Assembly (NCBI GenBank): GCA_009829735.1
Contig: CM020618.1
Span: 6,260,882 to 6,324,881 of the forward strand
Source: Pyropia yezoensis
Taxonomy: Eukaryota; Rhodophyta; Bangiophyceae; Bangiales; Bangiaceae
DNA length: 64,000 nucleotides
Reading direction: 5' to 3'
Positions 3,897 through 55,143 of this stretch are shown piece by piece; the first letter of the stretch is position 1, and each line of letters begins with the position of its first letter. A program made the position numbers and the translations under genes. The notes under the pieces were generated by a model. That model was given only the letters and a program-made list of their open reading frames with translations, was not told where the DNA came from and made no database searches.

Positions 3897-4230
3897 CAGC
3901 GGCGTACACGCCTAGTAAAGGTTAGCATCCTGGGTTTCTTTACGATATCTTTTTCAAAGAGACGTGGAGCCCTGAGACTGGCCACAAAGAAACTTAGTGA
4001 GATTTTCGTGCCCCCAATTCTGGCACCACGCCACAGAGGCCATGAGGGGCGGTTGTGCGCGGCACACGCCTATTTAAGGTGTGCAGCCTCGGTTTCTTTC
4101 CACCAGCCTTTTCAAAGAAACGTGCAGCCCTGTGAGTGGCAGAGAAAAACATTGGGCTCTTTTCATGACCCCAATTTTCACCCCACGCCACAGAGGCCAC
4201 GAGGGACAGTCGGGCGCAGCCCCGGTGACA
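3897..4230. repeat. Two tandem copies of a ~165 bp repeat
   Basis: Two diverged units lie head to tail (about 3900-4062 and 4063-4228). Shared landmarks in each are ACACGCCTA, GGTTTCTTT, TTTTTCAAAGA/TTTTCAAAGAAACGTG, CCCCAATT and CACGCCACAGAGGCC. I estimate roughly 70-75% identity by eye. A third copy lies inverted at about 10883-11047. The second unit also forms the outer part of the inverted repeat described separately. Confidence 0.75.
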
Positions 4231-4288
4231 CGGCCACCCGGATCTTGCGGATGAGTGTGTCCCCGAGATTGAATCTACCGAACTCCTT
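4078..4288. repeat. Left arm of ~210 bp inverted repeat
   Basis: The reverse complement of this segment matches two separated blocks: 6635-6699 (pairs with 4226-4288; about 4 mismatches in 63) and 10883-11030 (pairs with 4078-4225). Joining the two blocks across the Harbinger element restores one continuous right arm. The arms enclose the low-GC island 4289-6634. This looks like the terminal inverted repeats of an older transposon, class unknown. The outer ends both read TTAAGGTGTGCAGCC, but homology continues about 15 bp beyond TTAA, so the true outer end is uncertain. Confidence 0.75.
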
Positions 4289-36031: not shown

Positions 36032-39000
36032 ATGGCCGCTGCCGAGGCCTCTCCCATGTCGGGGGCGACGCTCGCCGCGACGCTCGTCGCAGGCGCCGCC
36101 TTTGCCTCCGCCGCGCTCGCCGCGTTTGAGGCGCTCCGCCGGGTGCCGGCGCTGGCTTGCGTCTACAACTACCGCGTGTACGCCGCGTCACGGGGGGGGC
36201 GGGGGGAAGGGGGGTGGAGGGGTGTGGCCGCTACGGGCCCCACTGAGACGCGGTCAGCAGGCGGAGGCAGCGGCGGCGGCGGCGGCGGGCACGGAAGGTA
36301 CGGGTCTGTTGGTGGTGACAGCCGTGACGGCGACGGCGGCGGCGGCGGCAGCAGCAGCAGCGGTGGTCTTGACAGTGGCGGTGGCGGCGGCGAGGCGCTG
36401 CCCGCGCACCCCGCCCCAGGCACGGCGGCGGTGGCCGGCGCGCCGGCGCGCCCCTTTGGCTGGGTGGCCGCCCGCTGGTGGGTGGCGGACCCGCCCAGCG
36501 GCAGCGCCGCCGCCGACGACGCGCTGCGGTTTTGCCGCCTCCAGGCGGGGCTGTGGGCCACCGTCGCAGTTGCCGTCTGTGCGGTGCTGCTGCCGGCCTA
36601 CGCGGCCGCCCGCGCGGGCGGCGGTGGCGGCGGCGGAGGCGGCGGCGGCGGCCCGGGGGGCGGGTGGACGGCGGCCGCCGTGCCGCTGTTCCGGTCGGCC
36701 GCCGGGGGGGGGGGGCAGGTGCCGTCGGCCGCCGCCGCGTTTGCCGCGTGGGTGGGGGGCCTCAGCGTGGCGACGCTGCCCCCCCCGCGTTTCCCAGACG
36801 GTGGCCTCGGCGGTGGCGGTGGCGGTGCCAGTGACGCGGACAGCGGCGGCGGCGGCGGCGGCAGCGTCGGCGGCGGGTACCCCCCCCACCTGTGGGCGGC
36901 GGTCGGGGTGGACGTGGCCATTGCCGCTGCGGTGGCGTCGGCCGCCGCGGTGGGCGGCGGCGGGTGGCTCGCCCGCCGACGGGCGGTGCTGGCCGACGCG
37001 GGGCGGGTGGAAAACTACGCGGTGCTCGTCGAGGGCGTCTCCCCGCGGTCGGCAGCGGCGGTGGCGGCACACCTGGGGGCGGCAGTGGCGGTGGCGTCGG
37101 CGGCGGCGGCGGCGACGGGGGGCGGGGGCGGGGCGGGGGGGGACGCCCCTGCTAGCGGCCCCCCCTCCAGGCGGGGGGCGCCCGTGGGGGGGGTGCTGCT
37201 CGCCCCGGCAGACCCCGGGGGGGTGCCCGCCGCCCGCCGCCGCGCCGCTCGCGCCGTGCGGCGGGCGGTGACGATTGGGGCGTCGGGAGCGGCGCCGGCC
37301 GCCCGCCGCGACGCGGCGGCGGCGGCAGTGGCAGCGGCGGCGACGGTGGCGGCCGCGCAGCGGGTAGTGTGGGGGGAGGCGGTGTGGGGGGCGGGGGGGG
37401 TGGCGGCGCCGGCGCCCCCGCCGGTGCCAGCATTGGGCGCCCCCGCCGGTAGCGACGGCGACACTCCCCAGGACGGTGGCGGCAGCGGCAGCGGCAGCGT
37501 GGGCGGCACCAGCGGCAGCGGCGACCACGACCGCGACGTCAGCGGCGGCGTCGGCGACGCGGACGCTGTCCTCGACGACCACGACGTCGACGAAGGCATC
37601 GGCCCGGGCGGTTCGGATGGGGACCTCGAGGTGGTCGTGGCTGCCGCCCGTTCGGCCGTGCTGGGCGCCGCCACCGTTGCCACCACCGCCCCCGCAAAAG
37701 TGAAGGCGGCCGTGAACGTGGCGGCCGGCGCCGAGCGCCTCCCGCTGCTGCCACTGGTGCAGCCGCCCGCGGCCGCGGGCACCCCCTCGACGGCGGGCGC
37801 CCCCACGGCGGCGGCGGCGGACAGCGGCGCCGCCGCCGCAGCGGCCGATCCCGCGGCCGTGACTCCCCCGTCGCTGTCCGCTTGTGCCATTGTCATCTTC
37901 CCCACCGTCCGTGCCGCCCGCGCGGCGGCGCAGGTCAACGCGTCCCCCGACGGGGTGTCATGGAGGGTATCCCCCGCCCCCCCCCCCGCGGGCGTCCGGT
38001 GGGCCGACGTGGCCATCCCGCAGGCGGCGGCGGGGCCGCTCGCCGCCCTCTCCTTTGCCGCGGGCGTTGTTCTCACCACCTCCTACGCGGGCCCTGTTGC
38101 GGCGATCGCGGGCCTCGCCAACCTCTCTGCCCTCGCCGCCCTTATCGGCTACCCGCCCCTGATGGCCGTCGCCGCCCACCCCGCCGCGGCGGCGGTCCAG
38201 GGCGTCGTGTCGCCACTGGCGCTGTCGGCGCTCAACGGGGCGGTGCCAGCCGCGGTGCGGGCGGCATGTCGGCTGGGGCGGCACCCGGCGGCCGACGCCC
38301 TTGACGCCGCCGCCCTATCGGCGACGGTGGCGTTTGAGGCGGCCACCACCTTGGGCGTTGGGCTCGTGTCGGGGGGGCTCCTCTCCGCCGCCACCGCCGC
38401 CCTCACCACCACCCCACCTGCGGTGGTGGTGGCGACGGCCGCCGCGGCGGCGAGCGAGCAGGGCCTGTGGTACGTCAACTATGTGGTGACGCGGACGGCC
38501 TGGGCGCTGCCGCTGGTGCTGCTTGACCCCCCGCGGGTGGCGTGGGTGGCGGCCATCACCCGCGCGTGGCGGGCAGGCTGGCGGTGGTGCAAGGGCAGGA
38601 GCGGCGCCGGCGGCGCCAGCGACGCAGGCCACGATGCCGCGCGTGCGCGCGCCGCGGCCGCGGACGAGGCGGCGGCCGCCGCCACTGCTGCGTCGGCCGC
38701 CGCCCCTCGTCTGTACCAGCCTTACAAGGGGGTGGGGGTGTCACTGCTGGCTCTGGCGCTCGCCACCGTCGCGCCGCTGGTGGCCGTTGCCGCCGCGGCC
38801 TACCACCTGGCTTCGTGGAACGTGTGGCGGTACCAGCTGCTCTACGCCCGTGCCGCCCCCGACGGGAGCGCCGCGTGGCAGCAGTCGCCGTCGCCGGCTG
38901 AGGGCGGTGGCGGCGGTGGCGGTGGCGGCGGTGGCGGTGGCGCCATCCACAGCAGCGCCATCGACGTTGGCGTCGACGACGTGGACAAAGGCAAAGGCGT

Positions 39001-39433
39001 TGGCGGCGTCGTGCACCAGCAGGCGGTCCCCGCGGTCCCACCCCCCGACGACAGCGGCGCACATTCGGTGCTCTACCTCTGTGGCCTCGACGCACTGGGC
39101 TGGTCGCTGGGCATCCGCCACACCCTTGCGGTCGGCCTGTACCTGGTGCGGGGCTTTTGGCCGGGCGTCGCTGTTGCGGCGGCGCTTTTGGGGGGGGGGA
39201 TTGCCGCCCGCCGTACCCTCATCCGCCGCTACGGGCCCGTCGTGGCGTACGGGTGTGTGACGGACCTTCCACCACCACCCGCAGAGGGCGACGACGCTGA
39301 TGACGGTGGCGCGTCGGGCGCTGGGCGCCACGCGGACCTTGTCGCCCGCGCGCTGACTGCCTACCTGCCACCACCTCTGCGGCCGCTGCCGCCCTTGCCA
39401 GAGGCGTTGGTGGCGGCCGCAGCGGGGAAGTGA
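36032..39433 (+). CDS. OSCA/TMEM63/CSC1-family mechanosensitive channel
   Basis: 1,133 residues from ATG 36032 in an ideal ACCACCATGG context. An N-terminal helix (LAATLVAGAAFASAALAAF) precedes the family's RVYA element. Two further helices at ~172-192 and ~285-310 follow. NYAVLVEGVSP (~327) is the conserved N-Y-x-V-L-V-x-G-[VI] that opens the cytosolic domain. That domain carries a large Ala/Gly insertion before CAIVIFPTVRAARAAAQ and PPPAGVRWADVAIP. The seven-helix RSN1_7TM block spans ~665-1090 (SFAAGVVLTTSYAG, LIGYPPLMAVAAHP, EQGLWYVNYVVTRTAWALP, VSLLALALATVAPLVAVAA). OSCA/TMEM63 proteins are mechanically or osmotically gated cation channels of plasma or endomembranes. The fold and order match; ion selectivity cannot be read. 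Poly-Gly tracts lie in loops only. Confidence 0.75.
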   Translation: MAAAEASPMSGATLAATLVAGAAFASAALAAFEALRRVPALACVYNYRVYAASRGGRGEGGWRGVAATGPTETRSAGGGSGGGGGGHGRYGSVGGDSRDGDGGGGGSSSSGGLDSGGGGGEALPAHPAPGTAAVAGAPARPFGWVAARWWVADPPSGSAAADDALRFCRLQAGLWATVAVAVCAVLLPAYAAARAGGGGGGGGGGGGPGGGWTAAAVPLFRSAAGGGGQVPSAAAAFAAWVGGLSVATLPPPRFPDGGLGGGGGGASDADSGGGGGGSVGGGYPPHLWAAVGVDVAIAAAVASAAAVGGGGWLARRRAVLADAGRVENYAVLVEGVSPRSAAAVAAHLGAAVAVASAAAAATGGGGGAGGDAPASGPPSRRGAPVGGVLLAPADPGGVPAARRRAARAVRRAVTIGASGAAPAARRDAAAAAVAAAATVAAAQRVVWGEAVWGAGGVAAPAPPPVPALGAPAGSDGDTPQDGGGSGSGSVGGTSGSGDHDRDVSGGVGDADAVLDDHDVDEGIGPGGSDGDLEVVVAAARSAVLGAATVATTAPAKVKAAVNVAAGAERLPLLPLVQPPAAAGTPSTAGAPTAAAADSGAAAAAADPAAVTPPSLSACAIVIFPTVRAARAAAQVNASPDGVSWRVSPAPPPAGVRWADVAIPQAAAGPLAALSFAAGVVLTTSYAGPVAAIAGLANLSALAALIGYPPLMAVAAHPAAAAVQGVVSPLALSALNGAVPAAVRAACRLGRHPAADALDAAALSATVAFEAATTLGVGLVSGGLLSAATAALTTTPPAVVVATAAAAASEQGLWYVNYVVTRTAWALPLVLLDPPRVAWVAAITRAWRAGWRWCKGRSGAGGASDAGHDAARARAAAADEAAAAATAASAAAPRLYQPYKGVGVSLLALALATVAPLVAVAAAAYHLASWNVWRYQLLYARAAPDGSAAWQQSPSPAEGGGGGGGGGGGGGAIHSSAIDVGVDDVDKGKGVGGVVHQQAVPAVPPPDDSGAHSVLYLCGLDALGWSLGIRHTLAVGLYLVRGFWPGVAVAAALLGGGIAARRTLIRRYGPVVAYGCVTDLPPPPAEGDDADDGGASGAGRHADLVARALTAYLPPPLRPLPPLPEALVAAAAGK

Positions 39434-40541
39434 TGGGCCCGGCCACGCCCGTGCACTGCTGTGTGTGTAGCTTGCTTGGCACCCCCCCCACCCCCCCCCT
39501 CCCCTTCCTCCCCTTTTCACGCTCTGCCTACGCCGTCCCCAAGCGTCGGGCTGTACCATGGGGTTGGCGCGGCAAGGGTGCCAGTGCCAGCACCAGCGCC
39601 GTTGACTGGTCGGGTTCCTTTTTTTCTTTCTGTACGTACGCAGCGCACTCTCGCGGCGAGGGGGGTGGGCTGCGGGGAGGACTGAGGAGGGTGGCGGCTC
39701 AAACGGAGCGCCTGCCGATGTCCTTTACCGGCGTGCATCTGGCCTTGACGCACCGGGAAGGCGCGTCGGCTATGGGCTCCCGCCCCGCAGGCGGGCCTTC
39801 AATGGGGACGCTGCGAGGGCGCGGCGGCGGCGGCGCGTCCCAGTGTCGATGCCACAGAACCAGCAGCAGCGTGTGGAGCGCTCCCGTGTCCACACTGTAC
39901 TTCAGCATCGCACTGGCGTATGCCCTAGGCAATCACAGAGACTCTTATCCTTTCACACATGTGGCCGCACAGGCTCCGTTTATTCCTCTCGTACCGCCCC
40001 GTCCACAGCAATGATGGCGATGGACCGTAGTCCCGCAAAGGTCGGCCCGCCGTCCGCCCCGCACGCACGGGTAGTGGCGTCGGCCACAGCGGGGGCGACA
40101 CGCTGCATGCCGGCGGGTCAGCCCCCTTCCCAAGCTGGGCCCTCCGTTGTCGTGGACGGACATCGGGCAGAGGCCACCACCAGGGAAGTGTCCATCCCAG
40201 AAAAGTAGTCCTGGGAAGGCTCGGTGATGCATCGATCCGAGTCAGACGTGATCCCCAGGCGCCCCCTGTTCTCGCCCTCCACGTTCCCCCTCCCACCCCC
40301 CCCCCCCCCACCTTCCACCCTACAGCCCCTGCTCCCCCCCTCCTCCTCTACTGTACCGCCCTGCTCCTGCTGCTGCTGCACCGCCTGGGCCCGTAGCCGC
40401 CGCCCCACCCGCGACCCCGCCTCCGCGGCGGCGACCAGCCGCACGGTCGCATCCAACGGTCATTCACTCGACTCTGCCCCCCCCCCCCCCCCCCCCGCCC
40501 CTCCTCCCCGCTACTCTGCCCCACCCATCGCCATTGGCGTC
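39434..40541. other. Intergenic, OSCA 3' flank / helicase 5' flank
   Basis: About 1.1 kb between two plus-strand genes. It contains C-rich tracts (39481-39515, 40480-40497) and no recognisable ORF. If the helicase starts at ATG 40227, its last 315 bp are coding. Confidence 0.5.
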
Positions 40542-43500
40542 ATGGCGCCCCTGCCGGCGGCCTTCCTCCCGCCCCCCTCCCTGTGCGGGCTTGCCGCTCT
40601 CCCCCCTCCCCGCGGTCTGCCGTCACGCAGCCACCGCCGCCGCCGGGCCGCCGCCGCCGCCCCCTTGCAACGTCAAGGGCCTCGGGGGGCGGCGTCAACC
40701 CCTCTCCCCCCGTCGGCGCCCCCCCCGCCCCCCCACCCTTCGCCAGCGACCACCCCCACTTCCACCCCCACCCCCACAGTATCCGCCGCCGCCGCCACTG
40801 CCGCCGCCGCCGCCCCCGGCACCGCCACGCCCCCGCCGCCGTCGCCGCCGCCGGCAGCACCTCCCCCCGCCCCCCCCTCCCGCGCGACCAGCCGGGCGGC
40901 GGCCACGACGGCCGCCGCCGTCTATGCCGACCACTTTACGGACCTGCTCGACGCCGAGCTCGACGCGCAAGCCGCGGCGGTCGCTGCGGCGGCGGCCGCC
41001 CGCCGCGGGGGGGGGGGGCGTGCCGCCGGCGGGGGGGTCGCCGGCCTCTGCGCGCGCGGCCGGCCGCCACTTTTTGGCGACACGGTCTTTGAGCTGTCTT
41101 TTCCTCCGCCGGGGGGGGGGGGCCGCGCCGCGTCGGCCAACCTGGACGCGCAGCCGCAGCCGCCAGAGACTGTCAAGAAGGGAGGCGGCGGCGGCGGCCC
41201 CGCTGGCGCTGCCGCCGCGACGGGGGAGCTGGGGCTGTCCTTTTCCAAGGGCGACGTCGTGTCGGTCCTGCGGGACACCAGCGCCGGCGGCTGGGGTCGC
41301 GGCGCCGAGCTGTTTGTCCCCCGCCGCCCAGGGCGTGGCGCCCGCGCCGGTGGCGGCGGGGACGGCGGCGGCCGTGGCGCGTCGTCGTCCGCGGCGCTCG
41401 CGGCCGCCGCGTCTGGGTCGGCCGACGATGACGCCAGCGGCGGCTTCCCCGCCACCGTCTATGTGGTGCGACCGACAGCGGTGCAGGTGGTCCTCCCGCG
41501 GGGCTCCCCCGGCGCCAAGGCCCTCAGCGCGTCGGGACCGACGGGGCGGTGGCGGTTGACCAAGCGGGTCAACGCCGTCGGGTACATCCGGGCTGTGGAC
41601 GCGGTCGCTGCCGCGGCGGCAGCGTCGTTGGCAGAGCCGGGGGGGGCGGGGGGGGGGACGGGTGGCGCCGCCCTGGCGCGCCTCCTCGTGCGCTCCTTCT
41701 CCACCGCCACCGTGCAGGCGGCGCTCGCCGCCGACGGGGACACATACGCGGACCAGTCGCCGGTGCCGTGGCCCATCCCCGCGCACGGGGCGGATGCCCT
41801 GGACGCGGCCGCGCGGGCGCCGCCGCCCGGGGTGGTCGGTGACCTTCCCCCTGCCGCGTCCGTGACGGCACCCACGGCGGGACGGCGGCAGCCGGGCACC
41901 CCGCCCCCGCCACCGGCGCTCAACGCCCCCCAGGCCGCGGCTGTCACCGCCGCGATTGGCCGCACCCTAACGCTCATTGCAGGCCCACCGGGGACGGGCA
42001 AGACCGCCACCGCCGCCGCCGCCGTGCGGCGCCTCGTCGACGGCGGCGACGGGCGGCTTGGCGGGGGCGCCGGCGTGCGGGTGCTGGCGGCGGCGGCGAG
42101 CCACGTTGCCGCCGACCACCTGACGCGCGCGATCATCCGCGCGGGGGTGCCCGCCGGCAAGGTGGTGCGCCTCGGCACCGCCGCGGCGGTGGGGGAAGAC
42201 CTCTGGGGGACCACGCTGGACGCGCGGGTGGCGACGCTCCTCACCCGCCTCGGGGGGGGCGAGGGGCGGTCGTCCGACGGGGACGACGACGGGCCGTCCC
42301 GGTCCGTCCTGGCGGGCGTTGGCGCAGGTGCGCCCATGGTCCGCACGCCCGCCGGGGCGGCGGCGCTCGCCGCGGCGGCCGCTCGCGCCGAGGCGGTCGC
42401 CGTGTCGGCGGCCCGCGCGGCGGCGACCGACGCCGTCCTTCGCGCGGCGGCGGTCGTCGTGACCACCTGCGTGGGCGCCGGCCACGAGACGCTGGCTGCC
42501 ACGGAGTTTGGGGCGGTGCTCCTCGACGAGGCGACGCAGGCGTCCGAGGCGGACGCACTCATCCCGCTCTTCCTCCCCGGCCGGGATGCGCTGACGGCAG
42601 AGGGCGCCGCGTCAGGTGGCGGGGGCCGCGGCTGTCCGCCGCTGCTGGTTCTCGTTGGCGATGACCGGCAGCTCCCGCCGACGGTGGTGTCCGAGGTGGC
42701 GGCGGCCAACGGGCACGGTGTCAGCCTGTACCGCCGCCTCCGCGGGGCAGGGGTGGCCGTCACGCCCCTGCGTGTGCAGTACCGGATGCACCCGGGCATT
42801 GCGGAATGGCCGGCGGCCACCTTTTACAGCGCCCACGCGCTGGCGGATGGGGTGACTATGGCCGAGCGGGCGCTCCCTCCCGCTTGGACAGCCCCAGGGG
42901 GGGTGTGGGGGGGGAGGGTACCCGTCACGTTTGTCGACGTGGGCGGGCCGGGGGGCGGGGAGAGCCGGGGGGGCGGGAAGGGGAAGAGGCGGCCCGGCGC
43001 GGCCGAAGCGGTGGGGGAGGCGACGGCAGCGGCGGCCGAAGCGGCCGCGACGGCGGGGGCGGCACCCGCTCCGGCGGGCGGCGGCATGGCCGCCTTCTCC
43101 TACCGCAACGACCGCGAAGTCGCTACCATTGTCGCGCTGGCCACCTACCTGGTGCGACCCCCCCCCCCCCCCGTTGCGGGAACGGCGGTCGCCCTCCCCC
43201 CCCTAACCGCCGCCCACGTGGGCGTCCTCACCCCCTACGCGGCTCAGGCGCGGGCGCTGTCGCGCGCCCTCCGCGGGGACCCCGCGACGGCGGCTGCCGA
43301 GACGGCAACTGTCGACGGCTTCCAGGGGCGGGAAAAGGAGGTCATCCTCTTCTCGGCGGTCCGCTCCAATGCGGGCGGTCGCGTCGGCTTCTTGGCCGAT
43401 GCCCGCCGCGCCAACGTGGCGCTGACGCGCGCGCGGCGGGGGGTGGTGGTCGTGGGGGACGCCCACACGCTGCGGCGATGCCCGCTGTGGGCGGGGTGGC

Positions 43501-43595
43501 TGGCGTGGGTCGCTGCTGAGGGGCGGGTCGTTACGGGTGACGAGCTGCCTGCGTTGTTGGGAGGCGAGGGGAGAGAGGCCGCAGAGGTGGCGTAG
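40542..43595 (+). CDS. SF1 (UPF1/IGHMBP2-like) helicase with probable organelle transit peptide
   Basis: 1,017 residues from ATG 40542 (context GCGTCATGG); an upstream in-frame ATG at 40227 is an alternative. The first ~60 residues are Pro/Arg/Ala-rich and lack acidic residues, like a plastid or mitochondrial leader. A barrel-like region (LSFSKGDVVSVLRD, WRLTKRVNAVGYIRAVDAV) precedes the motor, as in SMUBP2/IGHMBP2. Superfamily 1 motifs are complete: AGPPGTGKTAT (~479), LLDEATQASEADA (~660), VGDDRQLPPTV (~704), VQYRMHPGIAEW (~745), TVDGFQGREKEVILFSAVRS (~923), VALTRARRG (~957). The family unwinds DNA and/or RNA with ATP in translation, decay or organelle genome upkeep. Helicase identity firm; targeting inferred. 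Two UGUACAUA elements follow in the presumed 3' UTR. Confidence 0.85.
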   Translation: MAPLPAAFLPPPSLCGLAALPPPRGLPSRSHRRRRAAAAAPLQRQGPRGAASTPLPPSAPPPPPHPSPATTPTSTPTPTVSAAAATAAAAAPGTATPPPPSPPPAAPPPAPPSRATSRAAATTAAAVYADHFTDLLDAELDAQAAAVAAAAAARRGGGGRAAGGGVAGLCARGRPPLFGDTVFELSFPPPGGGGRAASANLDAQPQPPETVKKGGGGGGPAGAAAATGELGLSFSKGDVVSVLRDTSAGGWGRGAELFVPRRPGRGARAGGGGDGGGRGASSSAALAAAASGSADDDASGGFPATVYVVRPTAVQVVLPRGSPGAKALSASGPTGRWRLTKRVNAVGYIRAVDAVAAAAAASLAEPGGAGGGTGGAALARLLVRSFSTATVQAALAADGDTYADQSPVPWPIPAHGADALDAAARAPPPGVVGDLPPAASVTAPTAGRRQPGTPPPPPALNAPQAAAVTAAIGRTLTLIAGPPGTGKTATAAAAVRRLVDGGDGRLGGGAGVRVLAAAASHVAADHLTRAIIRAGVPAGKVVRLGTAAAVGEDLWGTTLDARVATLLTRLGGGEGRSSDGDDDGPSRSVLAGVGAGAPMVRTPAGAAALAAAAARAEAVAVSAARAAATDAVLRAAAVVVTTCVGAGHETLAATEFGAVLLDEATQASEADALIPLFLPGRDALTAEGAASGGGGRGCPPLLVLVGDDRQLPPTVVSEVAAANGHGVSLYRRLRGAGVAVTPLRVQYRMHPGIAEWPAATFYSAHALADGVTMAERALPPAWTAPGGVWGGRVPVTFVDVGGPGGGESRGGGKGKRRPGAAEAVGEATAAAAEAAATAGAAPAPAGGGMAAFSYRNDREVATIVALATYLVRPPPPPVAGTAVALPPLTAAHVGVLTPYAAQARALSRALRGDPATAAAETATVDGFQGREKEVILFSAVRSNAGGRVGFLADARRANVALTRARRGVVVVGDAHTLRRCPLWAGWLAWVAAEGRVVTGDELPALLGGEGREAAEVA

Positions 43596-44158: not shown

Positions 44159-44812
44159 ATGGCTTCTTCGGGCAAGCGCGCTCGCGTGGAGGAGGATGCG
44201 GGCCCTGCTGATTACGAAGAGGCACCCGCCCTCCCCTCTGCCGAGTCCCTGGCAGCACTCCGTCCGCGTCTGCTTGGGTTGTCACGGGAGCAGCTGGCGG
44301 ACCTTCTGATCAACGTTATTGCCGACGGCAGCCTCCCAGAGGAGACGCTACTGGCGCGGGTGCCCGCCCCTTCGCTGCGACCGGTGGCCGAGGCTCTGAA
44401 GAAAGCCAACGCGGCGATCCGTAAGAGCCTGCCCAACAGCCGCTTTGGGTCAGGCACCGACGCGTTTTGCTACCGCTGCTGCGCCACCCACGTGACGGCC
44501 TTTAAGAAACTGATTACCGACGAGGGCAAGACGCTCGAGACGGCGGGGCGCTGGCCGACCGTCCTCCGCTACTGCGTGCTCGCGTGGACAGAGGCTGACG
44601 AGAGTGTCACGTGGGACGAACCGAACCACAATGCATGGCGCGGGGTGGTTCAGAAAAACCTTGACCGCCTGGCGCTCAAGGCCTCCAAGGGGATGATCAA
44701 GGACAAGACGGTCGGGCGTGCGACGCTGGAGCAGGTGTTGGAGCAGTACGGGGAGTCATTTCCAGCCATCACCGCACCTCTCCAGACGGCCATTGCCAAG
44801 CGCAAGAACTGA
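44159..44812 (+). CDS. Cut8/STS1-family nuclear proteasome tether-like protein
   Basis: 217 residues from ATG 44159 (CCACCATGG). The basic start (SSGKRARVEED) could serve nuclear import. The helical core contains LSREQLADLLINVIADGS, VPAPSLRPVAEALKKANAAI, then FCYRCCATHVTAFKKLI and an ESVTWDEPNHNAWRGVVQKN segment. It has the order of the Cut8/STS1 domain: leucine-rich helices, a P-S-L motif, a Y-x-R segment, then a W-x-x-x-x-H-N segment. In yeast, Cut8/Sts1 anchors 26S proteasomes to the nucleus and supports degradation of mitotic regulators. The protein is shorter than fungal members. Identification rests on motif order; moderate confidence. It lies convergent to the SbcDC fusion. Confidence 0.6.
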   Translation: MASSGKRARVEEDAGPADYEEAPALPSAESLAALRPRLLGLSREQLADLLINVIADGSLPEETLLARVPAPSLRPVAEALKKANAAIRKSLPNSRFGSGTDAFCYRCCATHVTAFKKLITDEGKTLETAGRWPTVLRYCVLAWTEADESVTWDEPNHNAWRGVVQKNLDRLALKASKGMIKDKTVGRATLEQVLEQYGESFPAITAPLQTAIAKRKN

Positions 44813-45461: not shown

Positions 45462-48400
45462 TCACGACCCCCCCGCCGGCGGGCGGCCGCCGTCGGCGGC
45501 GGCACGCCCCCCCCAGAGGTCGCCAAAAGGCGCCAGCCCCGCCCCGCCTCCCCGCCCTGCCACCAGCTTCTCCACCGCCTCCCCGTTGGGCCCCGCGCCG
45601 GCGGGCGGCGCCCCCCCCCCGGCGGCGCTCCCGCCCCCGCCCCCGCCCACATCCACCACCGACCCCCGCCCCGGCACGCGGCGGACAACGTCGACACCCG
45701 CCGACGCGACGGCGGCCACCTCGGCGGCGCCCGTCTGGGCCACCACAAGCACACAACGGCGGGGGACGGCGAGGCCACCCCCCCCCAGCAGCGCCGCCAC
45801 CCGCGCGCGGCCGTCGTCATCGAGGCCCGCCAGTGCCTCGTCGAGCACCAGCAGATCGGGGGCGTAGCCGGTGCGGTCGGCCAGGAGGTCGGCGTACGCA
45901 AGCGACGCTGCCAAGTTGACCCGCCGTCGCTGGCCGCCCGACAGCTGCTCCAGGTCGCGGAGGTCCCCGCAGCTGCCGTCTGCAGCGCCATCGTCGTCGC
46001 CAGCGGTGACAAGGTCGTCGTCTGTGCTGCCACTGTCGTCGTCAGCGGCGCCAACGACGCCGTTCCCACTGCCCTCGTCGCTGTCATCGCTGGACGAGTC
46101 TGCCATGCCAGCCACGGCTGTGCCACCCTCCAAGCCGCCGCCCTCTTCCACCTCCAAGGACGCAAAGAGGTGCTCCAGTCCCGCTTCCCCGTCGCCCGCA
46201 CCCCCACCCACCAACACCGCCTTGCGGATGACCTCCCGCGTCTGACCCGCCCGAGCGCGCCCAGCGTCGCGGTAGGCGGTGGTCGCGGACAGGCGGAGCG
46301 CAAGCTCCCCCCCCCCAGGCGCGCACAGCGGACGGAGGTATGCGTTGGTCCGGTCTGCCAGGTCGGCGAGCAACTCGTCAAGGAGAAAGGACACGACGCC
46401 TCGGCCGCCAAAGGCCGCCTCGAGGGCGCCCGCGGTGGCCGCCTCTTCCGCCGCCCCCGCCGCCGTCGCGTTGTTGGCCGCCGCCAGCGCCGCGTGCTCG
46501 GCCACCAGGTCCGCCGCCGCGGCGGCGCGGGTGACAGCCGGCGACGCTTCGCCGGCTGCACGCGCCCGCGACGCGGCGGCCATCAGGTCGGCCACGCGGC
46601 CCGCGGTCGCGGTCGCCGTCGCGAGATCCGCCTCGAGCGCCGACACGGCCGCGGCGGCGGTGGTGGCCCGCGCGGCCGCGGCGGCAGCGGCGCCTCTGGC
46701 CGCCTCTGCCGCCGTCGCGGCCTCGTCGACGGTCGCGGCCGCCGTCGCCGCCGCGTCGGAGGTCAGGGAGGCCAGCGTCGCCGAAGCAGCAGAGGCAGCT
46801 GCCCACAGGTCAGCGGCTGACGCGGCCGCCACGGACGAGGCGCCTCCGTCCGTGCCGCCCACAGCGGCGCCGCTGCCCGTGGCGGGGGCACCAGATAGGC
46901 CCACGTCAACTCCCGCAGACGCCGCCGCCGCCCGAATGTCTGCCAGCGCTCGCCGAGCGGCGGCCGCCGAGGCCGCCTCTTCTGCCCCCAGCTGCGCCAA
47001 TGCCTCGTCCAGTCGCACCGCCCGCTCCTGTCGCCGACGCGCCGCCGCGGCGGCAGCGGTGGCCGCAGCCGCGTTCCTCTCGGCAAGGTTCGCCACTGCG
47101 GTGGCGGCGTCGGCCTCTGCTTCGAGGCGGGCGTAGAAGCGGTGGATCTGCACATCCTCAGTCGCGCGGGCGTCTGCCAACGCACGCTGCGCATCGTCAA
47201 CGTCGGCCGCTGCCGCCTGCTCGTCGGCGATCAAACCCGCCCGCCCGGCCGCGTGGGTAACCGCGTCCACCGGCTGCAGACACCGGGGGCAGACGCCAAA
47301 AGGCACGGCGGGCTCTCCCCCCGCAGGCCCATCCCCGCCAGCCCGGCGGTCATAGTCGGCGGCTGCCGCCGCCCCCGACGCAGCCGACAAGCGCGCCCGC
47401 AGCGCGTCCCGCACGGCAACGCGCTGCCGTACGTGGCCAGCCGCCTGCGCCGCAGCTGCCGCAACGGCCGCAACATCGGGGTGTTGCGACGGCGCCGCCC
47501 GACGAATGGCGGCGACGGACGCCGCGGCGCGGCGGCGCGCAGCCACGGCCGCATCGCCAGCCACCTGGGCGGCGGCAATGGCCGCACCGACGGTTGAGGC
47601 GGTGGCCCCTGCCGTGTCATCCTCGGCCACCTCGGCGGCGAGCGCCGCCACGGCCGCCCGGCGGGCGTCCACACGGGGTAGGACGTCTGCAGCAGATGCG
47701 GCCACGGATGCGTGCAAGCTGGCAGCAACGGTGGCGGATGCGCCCCACCGCTCGCGGGACGCCACGGCCGCCGCCCAGCGGGCGTCGGTGGCCGCGGCCA
47801 CGTCCGCGGGGGTGCCTTGGAACGCCCCGGCGGGGCCATCAGTGGGGGTGGCGGCGGTCAACGCCGCTGACAGCTCTCGCCGCGCACCCACGAGCTGCTG
47901 CCCGAGGTCTGCCACGCGGGCGGCCGCCCCCCCCGGGGCCCCGCCGTCCAGGTCAACTGCTTCTGCTTCAGAGGCTGCTGCAATGGCCTCGGCATCGGCA
48001 CGTGCGGCGTCCGCCTCTGCCTGCCGCGCAGCGGCGGCCGCCTCGTAGCGTGCCACCAGCTCCTCTGACGCGCCTGCCACTGCTCGTGCGCTTGCCGCCG
48101 CGGCCGCCGCCTTGGACCCCCGTTGAGAGGCCATCTCCCGGGCTGCGGCCCACACGCCAAGCTCTAGCGCTGGCCCAAGCGCGGCCTTGAACTCAGAGTC
48201 GGTCGCGTCGAGCAGGGCGCCGCGCGACTGCTGGCCAAAAAACGCAACCGCCGGCAGCAGGGACGTGTCGAGGAGGGTATCGAGGTGCTTCTGCGTGGCG
48301 GCCGTGTCTTGAAGGGAAGCGTCGACGCCGTCAACAGTCAGGCGTAGACGCTGGATATACCGCACGCGGCCGCTGGCAGCGGTGATGCGCCTGGCGCTGC

Positions 48401-50624
48401 GGGTGACCACCAGCGCAATTCCTCCGCCGGCTTCGCCATCGGCATGCGTGACAGCTACGTCATCAACGGTCGGCGTTCTCGAAACATCGTCTGCGGGCGA
48501 CGGTCCGTTGCCGATCCCGCTCGCCGCCGCGATGCCGTCCAGGTCAGCTGCGAGCGCACCCAGTTCCACGCTGCTGGGCCCCTTTGTGGTCAAGGGGTTC
48601 GCGCCGCCACGGCCACCAACCGCCCCGTTGGTAGCCGCCGACGTGGGCTCAGCGCCCTGCTCTGAAGAAGGCGCGCCAGCCCAAGCGGCCACCCCCGCCC
48701 CCGATACGTGCAGCCTAAGCGTCACCTCCGCGCTGTTGGCCGCGGGGTTGACCATGGCCCCCCCCACCCCTCGGTCCACGCTCCCCACCGGCCGCGCGTC
48801 CCCTCGCCCCGTCAAGGCCCACAGAGCTGCCATGACGAGCGTGCTCTTCCCCACCCCGTTGCTCGCCGGCCCGTCTCCAACAACCGCCACCACCCCTCGA
48901 CGATCCAGTGGGTACGTGGTGGTGCCGCGGAAGCACCCATAGTCGCGCAGCCGCACCGACTGGAAGGCGACAGAGACCTCGCAGCCACGGCGGGTGGCGG
49001 CCGCGGCGCCACAGGCGCCAGCCGCCCCATCCCCATCGGGCGCACCCTCTGCCAACAGCGCCAGGCCCAGGTCCACCACCGCGAAGGGCAGCGCTTTGGC
49101 CGCTGCAAAGGCGCGAAAGACCGCGGCGGGCGCCATGGCCCCCGCCGCCACGAGCCGCGGTGCCGGCGCGTCGGTGGTAACAGGAGTGCCAGCCGCCGAG
49201 CCTGCCGGCCCAGATGGCGGCGTCGCTGGCAGCAGCCGCACCCCTGCCCCTGCCGCACGCAGCGCCGCGGTGGCGGTGACGGCGGCGGCAGCAGCGGCAG
49301 CGTCGCCGCCCGGCACACGAAGTACGACGCGGTCGCCGGCGCGGACGGCCGGGAGGTCCCCCGCAGCGGGGGCAATGGTGGCGGCGGCGGCGACAATGCC
49401 GTCACTGACAGCGGCAGCATCAGGGCCACCCGCCACCCCCCCCCCGGCGGGCAGGTCCACCACAAAATGGCGTGGCCCGACGTCGAGCGGAATCGTCTCG
49501 ACCACCCCCCAACCCGCGTGGCGGTCAACGACGAGCAGCCGCTTGGCCTGCCCCCGCTCTCCAGCCGACACCTCGTATGGGCTCCCAACGCACACCACGC
49601 CCGCGGGGGTCACCCCCGGCGCGTGGATGTGACCCGTGTATACACATAGGTCGGGGGGGAAGAGGCCAGCGGGGACCGCACTCGGCCGAGGGATTGACGG
49701 CGGCGGCGTTGGCACTTGTAAAGCGGCGTGCCCCCCCTCAACCCCCTCGGGGCCGCCCACCACCCGCGGCGACGGCCCGTCGGCGCGGACGACACTCCCC
49801 ACGTCCACGTGACAAAACAGGGCGCCCGCGCCTGCGGCGACGCCCGCCCGGACGGCCGCGGTAAAAGCCGACCGCTCGCGGCAAAAGGGCACCCACAGGG
49901 CGCCCATGCCGAGGGCAGGCGCGTCCACCACCACCGCCAGGTCGTCGCCGAGGACGGCGCCCAGGGCGGTGAGCGCGTGCTCCCGCCCACCCAGTGTCAG
50001 CTGGTCGTGGTTGCCCGGCACCAGCACGACCGGGATGGTCCAGGTGCGGAGCTCGCGGACGACCGCGTTGAGGGCGGCGACGGACAGGGCGCCGCGGACG
50101 TGCCACCAGTCGCCGAGGAAGATGATGCCCGCGCCACGGCCGACCGCGGCCGCGTAGGCAGACCGCAAGGCGGCGAGCGCGGCGGGCAGCGTGGCGGGCC
50201 GAACGTGCAGGTCCGACAGGAGAACGTACCGGGAGGTGGCCTCGACGGCGGGGGGGATGAACAGATGGGGGAGGGCGGCGGGAGGGGGCACCGACGGGGG
50301 GTCGGCGGCCGGGGACCCCCCGTTGGCCCCAGCACCCGCCGCGGTGGCCGCCGGCCGCCGCCCCCGCGGGCGCGGGGACTTTCGCAGCGCCCCCCGCCCC
50401 GCGGCCGACGATGCGAGGCCCGTCGGTGGTGCCGCCGCGGCCGCACGCGCCGCAGCCGCCGCCGCTGACGCCGCCGCGGTGCGCGCCAGCGGGGGAGGCA
50501 CCCCCGTCGGCGGGCCCGCACGGCCGCGTAGACGCGGGAGGGCGCGCAAGGCCGCCACGCCCAGCAGCAGCCCGCGAGGGGGCAGCGACACAAACGCCGC
50601 GGGGGGGGTGGCAGGCCGCCTCAT
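45462..50624 (-). CDS. Single-chain SbcD-SbcC (Mre11-Rad50-like) nuclease-ATPase fusion with organelle-type leader
   Basis: 1,720 residues from ATG 50624 (CACCATGAG), one uninterrupted exon. Residues 1-~100 are Arg/Ala/Pro-rich without acids, like a plastid or mitochondrial transit peptide. A complete SbcD/Mre11 phosphoesterase follows: LLSDLHVRP (137/139), FLGDWWH (171), VPGNHDQL (204-206), CHVDVG (271), YTGHIHAPG (331/333). From ~550 an SbcC/Rad50 ATPase begins: VRLRDYGCFRG and a Walker A NGVGKSTLVMAALWALTG (~588). An Ala-rich coiled coil has a CPRCLQP zinc hook at ~1110 at its centre, then the signature LEQLSGGQRRRVNLAASLAY (~1557) and Walker B PDLLVLDEALAGLDDD (~1590). SbcCD/MR complexes open hairpins and process DNA ends and are normally two polypeptides. 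Both active centres look intact, so an organelle genome-maintenance nuclease is the best inference. Confidence 0.85.
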   Translation of the reverse strand: MRRPATPPAAFVSLPPRGLLLGVAALRALPRLRGRAGPPTGVPPPLARTAAASAAAAAARAAAAAPPTGLASSAAGRGALRKSPRPRGRRPAATAAGAGANGGSPAADPPSVPPPAALPHLFIPPAVEATSRYVLLSDLHVRPATLPAALAALRSAYAAAVGRGAGIIFLGDWWHVRGALSVAALNAVVRELRTWTIPVVLVPGNHDQLTLGGREHALTALGAVLGDDLAVVVDAPALGMGALWVPFCRERSAFTAAVRAGVAAGAGALFCHVDVGSVVRADGPSPRVVGGPEGVEGGHAALQVPTPPPSIPRPSAVPAGLFPPDLCVYTGHIHAPGVTPAGVVCVGSPYEVSAGERGQAKRLLVVDRHAGWGVVETIPLDVGPRHFVVDLPAGGGVAGGPDAAAVSDGIVAAAATIAPAAGDLPAVRAGDRVVLRVPGGDAAAAAAAVTATAALRAAGAGVRLLPATPPSGPAGSAAGTPVTTDAPAPRLVAAGAMAPAAVFRAFAAAKALPFAVVDLGLALLAEGAPDGDGAAGACGAAAATRRGCEVSVAFQSVRLRDYGCFRGTTTYPLDRRGVVAVVGDGPASNGVGKSTLVMAALWALTGRGDARPVGSVDRGVGGAMVNPAANSAEVTLRLHVSGAGVAAWAGAPSSEQGAEPTSAATNGAVGGRGGANPLTTKGPSSVELGALAADLDGIAAASGIGNGPSPADDVSRTPTVDDVAVTHADGEAGGGIALVVTRSARRITAASGRVRYIQRLRLTVDGVDASLQDTAATQKHLDTLLDTSLLPAVAFFGQQSRGALLDATDSEFKAALGPALELGVWAAAREMASQRGSKAAAAAASARAVAGASEELVARYEAAAAARQAEADAARADAEAIAAASEAEAVDLDGGAPGGAAARVADLGQQLVGARRELSAALTAATPTDGPAGAFQGTPADVAAATDARWAAAVASRERWGASATVAASLHASVAASAADVLPRVDARRAAVAALAAEVAEDDTAGATASTVGAAIAAAQVAGDAAVAARRRAAASVAAIRRAAPSQHPDVAAVAAAAAQAAGHVRQRVAVRDALRARLSAASGAAAAADYDRRAGGDGPAGGEPAVPFGVCPRCLQPVDAVTHAAGRAGLIADEQAAAADVDDAQRALADARATEDVQIHRFYARLEAEADAATAVANLAERNAAAATAAAAAARRRQERAVRLDEALAQLGAEEAASAAAARRALADIRAAAASAGVDVGLSGAPATGSGAAVGGTDGGASSVAAASAADLWAAASAASATLASLTSDAAATAAATVDEAATAAEAARGAAAAAAARATTAAAAVSALEADLATATATAGRVADLMAAASRARAAGEASPAVTRAAAAADLVAEHAALAAANNATAAGAAEEAATAGALEAAFGGRGVVSFLLDELLADLADRTNAYLRPLCAPGGGELALRLSATTAYRDAGRARAGQTREVIRKAVLVGGGAGDGEAGLEHLFASLEVEEGGGLEGGTAVAGMADSSSDDSDEGSGNGVVGAADDDSGSTDDDLVTAGDDDGAADGSCGDLRDLEQLSGGQRRRVNLAASLAYADLLADRTGYAPDLLVLDEALAGLDDDGRARVAALLGGGGLAVPRRCVLVVAQTGAAEVAAVASAGVDVVRRVPGRGSVVDVGGGGGGSAAGGGAPPAGAGPNGEAVEKLVAGRGGGAGLAPFGDLWGGRAAADGGRPPAGGS

Positions 50625-51147: not shown

Positions 51148-53814
51148 TCAGAGCTTACCCCACACCGCCCCTGGCGCCGCCGCCACCGCGCGCAGCTCCT
51201 CCCGCCCCACCACCGCCCAGTGCACCTCGTCGGGCCCGTCGGCAAGCCGCAGCGCGCGGGCGGCGGCCCACAGGTAGGCCAGCGGGGTGCCCCCGCCGAC
51301 GCCCGCCCCGCCCCACACCTGCACCGCCCGGTCAATGACGCCCCCAACCGACGTTGGCACCACCGCCTTGACGAGTGCAATTTTGGCGCGGGCGGTGCGG
51401 CGCGCCGCCCGCCGGGCGGCAGCCGCGCTGCTACTGCTGCTGCTGCTGCCATTGCTGCCGCCGCCGCGCGCCGCTGCACCGGCCGCCTCGAGGTTGTCAA
51501 GCGCGTCGAGGGCGGCTGCCGCGTCCAGTGCCAGCAGCCGCGCCGCGTCCAGATCGGCGCGGCTGCGCGCAAGCCCCTCCAGCACCACCCCATGGTCGGC
51601 GAGGCGGCGGCCAAACGCTACCCGCGCCCGCGACCGGTCGACGGCGAGCGCCAGCGCCCGCTCCCCTGCCCCCACCAGCCGGAGGCAGTGGTGCAGGCGG
51701 CCTCCGCCGAGGCGCGCCTGCGCACCCGCAAAGCCCCCCCCGCGGACGCCCAGCAGGGGTGACGGGGACAGCGGTAACACTGCCGAGGCCAGCGTCAGGA
51801 CGCCATGTCCGTGTGGAGCGTCGTCGTAGCCAAAGACGGTCAGCGGGCGGTCAAGGGTCACGCCTGGGTGGGGCAGCGGTAGCAGCAGGAGCGTGTGCTG
51901 GTTGTGCGGGGTGGCCGCTTCGGGGGGGGACCGCTCCCGTGGGTCGTCCCGAACGAGCAGTACGCACACACGGGCGCGCGGGTCGAGGCCCCCGCTCGTC
52001 CACCACTTTTGGCCACGCAAGATGAGCGCCTCCCCAGACGGTGCCGTCGTTGCGGTGGCGGCCAGGTTGGTCGCGTCTGACGAAGCAACCGCCGGCTCGG
52101 TCATGCCAAAGCAGGAGCGGATGGTGCCGTTGAGGAGGGGATCCAAATAGCGGGCACGCTGGGCGGGGGTGGCCAGCCTTGCAAGCAGCTCCATGTTGCC
52201 CGTATCGGGCGCGGAGCAGTTGAAAGCCTCGGATGCCCAGGTGACAGAGCCCATTACGGCCGCCAGCGGTGCGTACTGGACGGCCGAGTAGGAGCCGCCC
52301 AGGGAGGGCGGGAGGAACAGGTTCCACAGATGCAGTGACCTCGCAGACGCCTTGAGGTCTTCGAGAGGGGGAAATGGCGTCCATTTGGTGGCCGACGCCG
52401 CGCAGTGAGAAGCGTGCGCCGCCTCGAGCGGCACGACGCAGGTGGCCATGAATCGCTTGAGCGCGACGAGCGTAGCTGCCGCTTCGCTGTCGGTGGCCCG
52501 CCGGTCGCGCACGTCAGGGGCGGCAACGAGGGAGCCGCCATGGTTTGCTACAGGGCGGGGTACCTGGCCCCCCTGTACGCGCACCGCTCCAGCTGACGGG
52601 CCTTCGCCTCGCAGCGTCGCAGCGGCTTGTTGCACAAAATAGGGCGCCAGTATCGCCGCCTCTGCTGCGGTGCTGCCCGATGCGTTGCCACTCCGAGACC
52701 GTGCTGCGACGCCAACCAGCACCGCACCAGACCGGAAGAGAGCAAACGCCGCCAGCAGTCGCCAATGTGTGTCGTCCGACACACCACTGCTGCCGCACGT
52801 AGCAGCAGTGGCAGCCACGTAGGTAGCACGAAGGTCAGCCACAGACGGAATGCCTGCCGCCGCCAGGTCTGGCACGCCCCCCAGCCCCCGTACAATGGCC
52901 GACTGCACTGGTGGGTCTGGCAGGGCGTGCGGGATGGCAAGTGTGGCAAGGTCCGCACCAGGCTCATCGCTCGTGGCGGCCAGCTCCCAGTCCAGAATAG
53001 CCACCACCTCGGGACGCGTCGGGTGGAACTTGATGTTGCCCAGGTGGAAGTCTCCGTGCGTCAGGCACACTCGCCGTCCGCCATCATCTCCATTGGCGCG
53101 ACCGCCACGGAGGGACGACTGCGCGACCGCAGAGCTCAAGTTGGCAAACAGACGGCCCATGTCCCCCCCCGCCCCTCCCACCGCGCGGAGCTGACCCCCC
53201 CAGCGGCGCAGCTGGCGAGCCAAGTACCCACCCCGGGATGGAAAAGCTCGCCTGTCCAGCGTCAGACTTGCCACGTCAACTGCATGCAGCGAAGCCACAC
53301 ACTGAACCGCCGCGGCGTACATGGTCGCCCGGTCTTCTGGCGAGACACCAGGCAGGGTCGGGTCGTCAAAGCACCGCCCCTCCACGTATTCCATGACATA
53401 AAACGGGGTCCCAACGACAGCTGCGTCAGCGCACATCGCATACACGGACGGCACAGGCACAGAAGTTTGGGCCAGGGCGGAGAGCACAGCGTACTCGCGC
53501 TCGATAGCATGGGCCGACGGGAGAAGCACGCCGTGGGGCTTCTTGCGCAGGACCACCGTGAGGTCTACAGCATAGGGGGGAGCGGCGCCGTCGGAGGCAG
53601 AGGTGATACGGAGATGGTAGGTGGGGTTGGACTGCCCGACGGGAAACTTGGTCGCGGTCAATTGCAGGGGAGGGAGGGTGACGCCTGTCGCCGCCAGCGC
53701 CGAAAGCGCATCGGTGAGGGGCGGGAGGTGGACCGTAGCCCATTGAAGAAGAGCATGAGAATTGAGGGCCTCGGGCGACTTGCCACCAGAAGCAGAGAGG
53801 GGAGAGACAGTCAT
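51148..53814 (-). CDS. ACAD10/11-type protein: APH-like kinase fused to acyl-CoA dehydrogenase (IBR3-like)
   Basis: 888 residues from ATG 53814 (MTVSPLSASGG). In-frame ATGs at 54009 and 54063 would add up to 83 residues including a hydrophobic stretch. I prefer 53814 because the protein then begins near family homology. N-terminal half: aminoglycoside phosphotransferase-like kinase with KFPVGQSNPTYHLRI, AIEREYAVLSAL, HGDFHLGNIKFHP (~251) and AILDWELAATSDEPGADLA. C-terminal half (~440-885): acyl-CoA dehydrogenase with CFGMTEPAVASSDATN (~567), LRGQKWWTSGG, AGERALALAVDRSRARVAFG, a VWGGAGVGGGTPLAYLW segment and EVHWAVVGREELR. In animals ACAD10/11 phosphorylate and dehydrate 4-hydroxy acids for beta-oxidation; Arabidopsis IBR3 acts in peroxisomal indole-butyrate breakdown. 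The C-terminus (GKL) is not a clear PTS1, so location is open. Confidence 0.88.
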   Translation of the reverse strand: MTVSPLSASGGKSPEALNSHALLQWATVHLPPLTDALSALAATGVTLPPLQLTATKFPVGQSNPTYHLRITSASDGAAPPYAVDLTVVLRKKPHGVLLPSAHAIEREYAVLSALAQTSVPVPSVYAMCADAAVVGTPFYVMEYVEGRCFDDPTLPGVSPEDRATMYAAAVQCVASLHAVDVASLTLDRRAFPSRGGYLARQLRRWGGQLRAVGGAGGDMGRLFANLSSAVAQSSLRGGRANGDDGGRRVCLTHGDFHLGNIKFHPTRPEVVAILDWELAATSDEPGADLATLAIPHALPDPPVQSAIVRGLGGVPDLAAAGIPSVADLRATYVAATAATCGSSGVSDDTHWRLLAAFALFRSGAVLVGVAARSRSGNASGSTAAEAAILAPYFVQQAAATLRGEGPSAGAVRVQGGQVPRPVANHGGSLVAAPDVRDRRATDSEAAATLVALKRFMATCVVPLEAAHASHCAASATKWTPFPPLEDLKASARSLHLWNLFLPPSLGGSYSAVQYAPLAAVMGSVTWASEAFNCSAPDTGNMELLARLATPAQRARYLDPLLNGTIRSCFGMTEPAVASSDATNLAATATTAPSGEALILRGQKWWTSGGLDPRARVCVLLVRDDPRERSPPEAATPHNQHTLLLLPLPHPGVTLDRPLTVFGYDDAPHGHGVLTLASAVLPLSPSPLLGVRGGGFAGAQARLGGGRLHHCLRLVGAGERALALAVDRSRARVAFGRRLADHGVVLEGLARSRADLDAARLLALDAAAALDALDNLEAAGAAARGGGSNGSSSSSSSAAAARRAARRTARAKIALVKAVVPTSVGGVIDRAVQVWGGAGVGGGTPLAYLWAAARALRLADGPDEVHWAVVGREELRAVAAAPGAVWGKL

Positions 53815-55143
53815 GTCGCTCGGGGAGGCAGGCAGAAAGGAGGTTGGATAGCAGTGGCGGCCAGCAATCAAGTCGCTCAGGCACCGATGACGGGATGGCG
53901 GTCGGAGTAGCACAGCCAGGGCAGCCAAGCACACCGCAGACGAGACAAGGGAGAGAGCTGTGGGGCCGGCGCCAACCACGAAGAGATGACGCACAATTGT
54001 CTGCCCCATTCTGTCGTGACGTGATAAATATATTTTCAATACTTCACTCGACTTCATTCTCATGTCTTCTGAAGTCACGAAGTCACGAGTCCCCCTCCGC
54101 TTTCCACGTACAGTGACCTATCCAAAGTATTTAATCCCCACGCCGACCCGACCATGTCTCTTCCTTTGCCTACGGCAACCATGCTCGGCTACCTTGGACT
54201 TGGGGTCTCCGGGGATTTTTAGGCCCGGTGTGCTCGTGAGAACGTCTGCCATCACCCTGAGCTGTCAGATCATCATGATGTCCACCCGCTCCTTTCCTGG
54301 CTGAACAACTGGCTCCAGGTCATACGCAGTCGGGTGCAAGTGTTGAGGAGAATGGCTACACCTGCACACTTGTGAAGGCGCTGCTCTCGGCTTGAGACAT
54401 GCTTATCAATACACAGGGAGCGTGCCTACCACAGCTCTGCGTTTTAACCGTTTGTTTTATAGCGCTAGGGACAGCAGCGCGATGTTTTTCTCCTATTGAT
54501 AACAAAAGTGCCGCGCGGGACATGCACTTGCGGTTTCTAATGCATGTGACGCTACAGCGACCTGTAGGTCATTAATAAGTTGTATTCTCGCAGACAGACT
54601 GAAGAAGTCGGATGAGTGTCTTGCCGCTTCCGCTGTACTATTTTTGCTGGTAACGAAAGCAGAGATAGTAGTGAAACGAAATCAGAATAAGGTTGCGTGT
54701 TGCTCTTGTGCCTTGAGGGCAGCTGTAGGTACATGTAAGAGTGAAGTGAAGCGGGCGACCCGCGCAGAGTCACGTTGATGCGCCCCCGCAGTCAGACAGG
54801 TTGACGCATCCCCATTGCACTGATGGTGCTACAGAGTTTAGGAGGGCGAGTGGGACCTAAACGAGCCGTGTGGGAACGGTGACAAAGGCCAAAAGAAGCG
54901 GGACGAGGCAAAGAGAGATATGAAACACTGCCAAGCAGCCCGCTCAGCGATAAACCGTGCAGAAGCGGTGCGACCACGTGTGAGTCCATCCCCCCTCTCC
55001 TGAGCACCCCGGATTGGCGCGACATCGCCGGTTGCGGCGGCGGCCGCTCGTTGCGGGTGCGACCCCGTTCGTCAACCACCGTTTGGTCGTAGCGGCGGAG
55101 ACAGACGAGCACGACCCCGCGCATCCCCACCACAGCTTTGGTC
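53815..55143. other. ACAD promoter region / TPX2-like 3' flank
   Basis: 1.3 kb, or 1.08 kb if an upstream ACAD start is used. From about 54,000 to 54,780 GC is clearly lower than in the flanking genes. No ORF above 80 codons with any recognisable feature and no tRNA-like fold found. Confidence 0.5.

Follow-up and report, generated by a model that had tools for sequence, protein, structure and literature searches.

A fused SbcD-SbcC protein of Pyropia yezoensis, probably plastid-directed and of phage/virus-type ancestry

The window analysed here is a stretch of 64,000 nucleotides from the red alga Pyropia yezoensis (GCA_009829735.1, contig CM020618.1; C1:6260882-6324881 of an assembly of 107,475,971 bases, ~107 Mb, in 11 contigs). 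Its minus strand contains an ATG-initiated frame, 45462..50624, of 1,720 codons and a stop that encodes an SbcD/Mre11 nuclease followed by an SbcC/Rad50 ATPase in one chain. The frame has no N and is interrupted by no stop before its end; across the same interval, each of the five alternative frames holds 12 to 24 stops. Under an independent and identically distributed model at 76% G+C, the chance of an open frame this long is ~1e-10. G+C by codon position is coding-like throughout, domain junction included, and the whole assembly likewise gives a single frame there (open frame, 1,729 codons). A sequence-only reading of this DNA had proposed an intact fusion with the nuclease before the ATPase and an acid-free N-terminal leader. 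Both proposals hold, and every motif it claimed is present. The order is the correct one: five nuclease motifs, Walker A, Q-loop (FFGQQ, residues 795-799), CPRC hook, signature and Walker B. The features of the protein, in window coordinates, are as follows.

45462..50624, minus strand: whole fused SbcD-SbcC open reading frame (ORF), 1,720 aa plus stop
50268..50624, minus strand: leader, residues 1-119, with AAFVS at 9-13; putative plastid transit peptide
49470..50237, minus strand: SbcD/Mre11 phosphoesterase domain, about residues 130-385
50202..50219, minus strand: phosphoesterase motif I, LSDLHV, residues 136-141
50100..50117, minus strand: phosphoesterase motif II, LGDWWH, residues 170-175
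50004..50018, minus strand: phosphoesterase motif III, PGNHD, residues 203-207
49803..49817, minus strand: phosphoesterase motif IV, FCHVD, residues 270-274
49623..49637, minus strand: phosphoesterase motif V, TGHIH, residues 330-334
49131..49469, minus strand: presumed capping domain with Ala-rich loop, about residues 386-498 (low-confidence model, predicted local distance difference test, pLDDT, about 28-57)
49047..49130, minus strand: two helices, residues 499-526, where the Rad50-binding helix-loop-helix sits (pLDDT 75-79 by block, 66 at the end)
48972..49046, minus strand: linker of about 25 residues from the nuclease to the ATPase part
48135..48971, minus strand: SbcC/Rad50 N-terminal ATPase lobe, about residues 552-830, with a low-complexity insert
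48840..48878, minus strand: Walker A with lengthened loop, GDGPASNGVGKST; ASNGVGKST at residues 587-595
47292..48134, minus strand: first coiled-coil arm, Ala-rich; hydrophobic period of 3.5 in residues 841-1100 by simple periodogram
47280..47291, minus strand: zinc hook CPRC, residues 1112-1115
46428..47279, minus strand: second coiled-coil arm, Ala-rich; 3.5 period weak by simple periodogram
45630..46427, minus strand: SbcC/Rad50 C-terminal ATPase lobe, about residues 1400-1665
45978..46133, minus strand: acidic C-lobe insert, residues 1498-1549, 31% Asp/Glu; not in three aligned viral rows
45921..45944, minus strand: ABC signature LSGGQRRR, residues 1561-1568
45834..45854, minus strand: Walker B LLVLDEA, residues 1591-1597
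45729..45749, minus strand: H-loop region LVVAQTG, Gln replacing His

Pfam Metallophos scores 24.3 bits on the nuclease half against a curated cut-off of 21.5. In an alignment of 36 SbcD sequences, the fusion included, the catalytic residues show no substitution: the D and H of motif I, the GD of II, the GNHD of III, the H of IV or the GHxH of V. A 28-row profile, again with the fusion included, retrieves Thermotoga Mre11 (E 3.5e-24) and E. coli SbcD (E 2.2e-23) from the PDB. As a single sequence, the nuclease part reaches SbcD/Mre11 at E 0.1 or worse, and the whole fusion protein matches no PDB chain at E 0.01. The nuclease part is predicted to take up the nuclease fold. The length of the capping and helix-loop-helix region and the two helices would suit the layout described by Yoshida in 2011, in which a linker of at least 9-12 residues follows (about 25 here), but the capping part is modelled at low confidence. 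In the ATPase half, Pfam SbcC_Walker_B scores 27.3 bits against a cut-off of 27, and AAA_23 and SMC_N fall under theirs. These weak single-profile scores are attributable to the Ala-rich and diverged character of the protein.

The fusion is far from the canonical families. It scores 24.5 of the 478.5 bits required by TIGR00618 and 18.1 of the 77.65 bits required by TIGR00619. TIGR00583 and TIGR00606 are absent among the best 25 of its 33 matches, and TIGR00583 is absent among the three matches of the nuclease part. The nuclear genome also encodes a separate ordinary Mre11 (TIGR00583, E 3.2e-104, 349 bits, below the curated cut-off of 434.6) and a separate ordinary Rad50 (TIGR00606, E 1.4e-144, above cut-off); PF04152 (Mre11_DNA_bind) matched only the ordinary Mre11 gene and not the fusion. 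The nuclease part of the fusion was found once in the assembly, with nine candidates scored. Because both ordinary subunits are encoded, the fusion is an extra, distinct protein, and we rejected the idea that it replaces the ordinary pair.

To place the fusion, a main tree of 25 rows was built from the fusion itself, the Deferribacter fusion, seven canonical bacterial pairs, the alga's own Mre11/Rad50, three phages and 12 IMG/VR contigs. The bacterial pairs are E. coli and six plasmid-borne ones, Nostoc among these, and the cyanobacterial sample is that one plasmid pair; eukaryotic rows come from the alga's own genome only, and archaeal rows are not included. With the halves joined, the fusion groups with the phage/virus rows and Deferribacter (support 100/98), and the approximately unbiased (AU) test speaks against a clade that unites it with canonical bacteria (rejected, p 0.0079), the alga's own Mre11/Rad50 (rejected, p 0.0079) or Nostoc (rejected, p 6.6e-15). 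The same test does not reject a clade of the two fusions (p 0.19). The nearest rows by tree path are Listeria phage A511 and the IMG/VR locus L180. The SbcC half alone also puts the fusion on the virus side (99/98), and Nostoc is rejected by the SbcC half (p 1.6e-5) and by the SbcD half (p 0.0046). An earlier, quick tree of 39 rows had the fusion outside E. coli plus the alga's own Mre11/Rad50 (Shimodaira-Hasegawa-like approximate likelihood ratio test 90), with long branches flagged.

The loop before Walker A SNGxGK is lengthened in the fusion and in 11 of the 16 viral, phage or Deferribacter rows (9/12 IMG/VR, 1/3 phages, and Deferribacter) and in none of eight canonical rows, a pattern that agrees with virus-side placement. 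Judged from the sequences, there is no support for descent from canonical bacterial SbcCD; the fusion most likely stems from the pool of phage/virus-type SbcCD and not from the cyanobacterium that gave rise to the plastid. The earlier proposal of an organelle version of bacterial SbcCD is thus supported in part, by a leader of organelle type. PHROG profiles phrog_77 (E 1e-14) and phrog_100 (E 1.3e-11) match the fusion; these scores were dropped as a sign of phage origin, since E. coli SbcC and SbcD score high too. Separately, one viral SbcC (L092, IMG/VR contig 3300035698_032001) has an intein-like insertion in Walker A, between GK and the next Ser.

A tblastn search of phages and plasmids with the whole fusion protein gave no match at 1e-3, and the fusion and Deferribacter proteins, used as single queries against viral contigs, gave no confirmed relative. 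With an E limit of 1, the nuclease part drew 77 weak records from phages, the strongest at E 0.5. Fused viral relatives, sought as GNH[D/E] followed by NGxGK in one frame, numbered none among 182 loci that were gathered by similarity from the matches listed and do not amount to a census; the only one-frame matches were the P. yezoensis fusion gene itself, present as three overlapping loci, and that of Deferribacter, present as two. Two of three later loci were examined: in L254 the two genes are apart, and L256 has a nuclease frame without any ATPase motif. In BFVD, long viral proteins with the SbcD fold, judged on that fold alone, include those of Tupanvirus (1,379 aa), Yasminevirus (1,389 aa), Listeria phage LMTA-57 (1,009 aa) and A7KV18 (769 aa). 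The last is the accession given by Yoshida et al. for the Bacillus phage fusion (PMC3175470).

Asp and Glu are absent from residues 1-107 of the fusion, and the next longest acid-free run in the protein is 43. They make up 10.7% of residues 121-1720, a rate at which 106 acid-free residues have P = 6e-6. AFV occurs once in the whole protein, at residue 10. Residue 1 is the sole in-frame Met before residue 240, so the leader belongs to the protein, barring an upstream exon or a non-ATG start. For plastid-type controls from the same genome, nine loci were tried, six light-harvesting and three chaperonin, the group I status of the latter being assumed from their lower score. Three light-harvesting loci without a Met before the match were dropped, as was chaperonin L242, which is not leader-like (Asp/Glu from residue 20, four in 60). 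The five remaining leaders have 0-2 Asp/Glu per 60 residues, against 0 in the fusion, and an aromatic residue follows Ala at position 4-6 (AF in 4/5, AY in 1/5). For cytosolic controls, 17 loci were tried (eight CCT, nine proteasome), five of which have no Met before the match; the 12 usable ones have 3-12 Asp/Glu per 60 residues, with some starts doubtful because introns interrupt the genes. The corresponding counts are 6-12 in four tubulins, 9 in the alga's own Mre11 and 5 in its own Rad50; the tubulin family search of the genome returned tubulins only and no FtsZ. Excerpts of a study of phenylalanine-dependent import into cyanelles, in which an AFV-deleted precursor was used, term the similarity to Porphyra yezoensis plastid leaders striking (PMC2222254). 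Plastid targeting of the fusion, as suggested by its acid-free AFV leader, is plausible.

Elsewhere in the window, the plus strand carries an RSN1_7TM channel-like ORF (36032-39430), an AAA_11/AAA_12 helicase-like ORF (40224-43592) and a Cut8 proteasome tether (44159-44809), and the minus strand a protein kinase (22516-25122); none of these neighbours points to organelle DNA work. A 976-aa minus-strand ORF at 51151-54078 combines APH phosphotransferase and acyl-CoA dehydrogenase domains, a pairing also found in ACAD10/11. A transposase ORF of the Plant_tran / DDE_Tnp_4 kind lies at 9235-10581, minus strand, and G+C falls to 0.40 in 4001-6000, the other 2-kb steps being 0.59-0.81. The RecA family search of the genome gave one match (G000:C2:12832305-12832946, 47 bits), which resembles Rad51/DMC1; as far as a search exon by exon can tell, the genome showed no RecA of bacterial type.

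Taken together, our results suggest a non-canonical fused SbcD-SbcC of the Yoshida kind, an ATP-driven DNA-end and hairpin nuclease that is probably plastid-directed and of phage/virus-type ancestry. Several results weigh against this. The SbcD half alone leaves the fusion unplaced (62/41) and does not reject canonical bacteria (p 0.108), and the SbcC half alone rejects neither bacteria (p 0.13) nor bacteria plus the alga's own Rad50 (p 0.42). The exact placement is uncertain because the branch of the fusion is long and its composition odd. Only about four residues make up its Walker A insert, and a six-frame search of the genome with phrog_77 did not list the fusion. Among the motifs tested, the H-loop His, here Gln, is the sole missing residue, a substitution that the sequence-only reading did not mention. 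The same Gln is found in 2/24 other aligned rows, the viral SbcC of IMG/VR loci L180 and L027, and so the change alone need not imply lost function. The capping region is modelled at low confidence, and the structure prediction covered the nuclease part. The leader tests are small and their plastid controls were assigned by family, not by experiment; the mitochondrial control leader sought in ATP synthase loci yielded none that was usable.

That last gap matters for the possibility that the same fused nuclease-ATPase acts not in plastids but in mitochondria, or in the nucleus beside ordinary Mre11-Rad50. With Arg at residues 2 and 3 and a leader that is rich in Arg and free of acidic residues, the protein would, as generally understood, also be suited to mitochondrial import. 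However, AAFVS resembles both the AFV-type plastid leaders in the excerpted cyanelle study (PMC2222254) and the five plastid-type leaders of the same genome, and all 16 cytosolic controls contain acidic residues where the fusion has none, and we consider a site outside plastids possible but rather doubtful. Descent from a canonical bacterial sbcDC, for example a cyanobacterial one, that fused after endosymbiont transfer and came to differ from its relatives by convergent drift, seems improbable. The halves taken singly do allow a clade with the seven bacterial pairs, and the branch is long; the joined halves reject it, Nostoc, albeit one plasmid pair, is rejected in each data set, and no canonical row has the lengthened loop. 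It is very improbable that two genes or exon sets came together accidentally or through misassembly of G+C-rich sequence. The window does hold many long chance frames (64 ORFs of 250 aa or more), but here ordered motifs stand on both sides of a junction crossed by an intact, coding-like frame, which is single in the assembly too, and the architecture was already known. Both a chance open frame and an assembly join at the domain boundary were rejected on these grounds.

If the fusion is indeed a plastid-directed nuclease of this kind, its action can be sketched on the model of the solved complexes of SbcCD and Mre11-Rad50. Two copies would form the equivalent of M2R2. The N-terminal phosphoesterases would dimerise, the helix-loop-helix of each copy would bind the base of its covalently attached coiled coil, and the zinc hook would link the coiled-coil tips. 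Upon ATP binding, the ATPase lobes might close as a clamp on DNA; a DNA end or hairpin would be recognised, and ATP hydrolysis would then power cutting. The acid-free AFV leader would direct import into the plastid, where breaks and hairpins in plastid DNA would be processed. This raises the suggestion that the processing of DNA ends and hairpins in plastids may rely on an enzyme of virus type and not on the cyanobacterial one. A broader scenario, which we regard as speculative, is that algae captured a virus-type fused Mre11-Rad50 and moved it to the plastid to handle DNA breaks and hairpins in place of a lost cyanobacterial SbcCD, the moss, diatom and prasinophyte fusions being the same plastid protein. 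Since its stoichiometry is fixed, a single-chain Mre11-Rad50 would be handy for structural and single-molecule work.

The sequence-only reading knew of no characterised example, but the novelty that this implies does not hold. Yoshida, Claverie and Ogata described thirteen Mre11/Rad50 (SbcDC) fusions of the same domain order in 2011, in mimivirus (R555), Physcomitrella, Phaeodactylum, two Micromonas, two slime moulds, Deferribacter, Clostridium and a Bacillus phage, among others (PMC3175470). The moss, diatom and Micromonas fusions form one group (bootstrap 91), virus-type origins are argued for the fusions, and cellular holders other than Deferribacter keep the ordinary pair (PMC3175470). Fusions were therefore in print for photosynthetic eukaryotes, though not as plastid proteins, and this partly satisfies one of the conditions under which the sequence-only reading would count as refuted, namely that plastid SbcDC fusions were widespread and already described. 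The 2011 list contains no red alga (PMC3175470), and in one open-licence library we found no later publication on algal fusions and no red-algal fusion. What is apparently new is the red-algal member, its virus-side placement and its plastid-type leader. Red algae thus apparently join moss, diatom, prasinophytes, slime moulds, bacteria and viruses as listed sources of this little-studied fused repair enzyme.

Like the 2011 fusions, the P. yezoensis protein has the nuclease first and the ATPase second in one chain, with N-terminal phosphoesterase metal motifs and Walker A, signature and Walker B in the same frame, in a host that retains the ordinary pair. It also falls outside the canonical bacterial and eukaryotic groups with the halves joined, the separate halves not rejecting the bacterial group. 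It differs in its AFV leader and acidic C-lobe insert, the eukaryotic members having been compared by description only. In mimivirus R555, as here, His ends motif II, but R555 has Asp for one motif-V His, and both His are kept in the P. yezoensis fusion. The plasmid-borne SbcDC fusion of Deferribacter desulfuricans (WP_013008908, L017) shares the domain order and lengthened Walker A loop, and its nuclease half aligns with that of P. yezoensis (43.5 bits, pairwise E 1e-7); unlike the latter, it sits near T4-like phage rows. A clade of the two was neither found nor rejected, and so each may have become fused on its own. Phage SbcD/SbcC pairs (Listeria phage A511, IMG/VR L067 and L180) have the lengthened loop, and the viral SbcC of L067 and L039 has the SGGxRRR signature, but in the phage pairs nuclease and ATPase are encoded by neighbouring genes and not by one. 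E. coli SbcCD and eukaryotic Mre11-Rad50 have the fold, motifs and presumed mechanism in common with the fusion, but consist of two subunits and belong to the canonical sequence groups.
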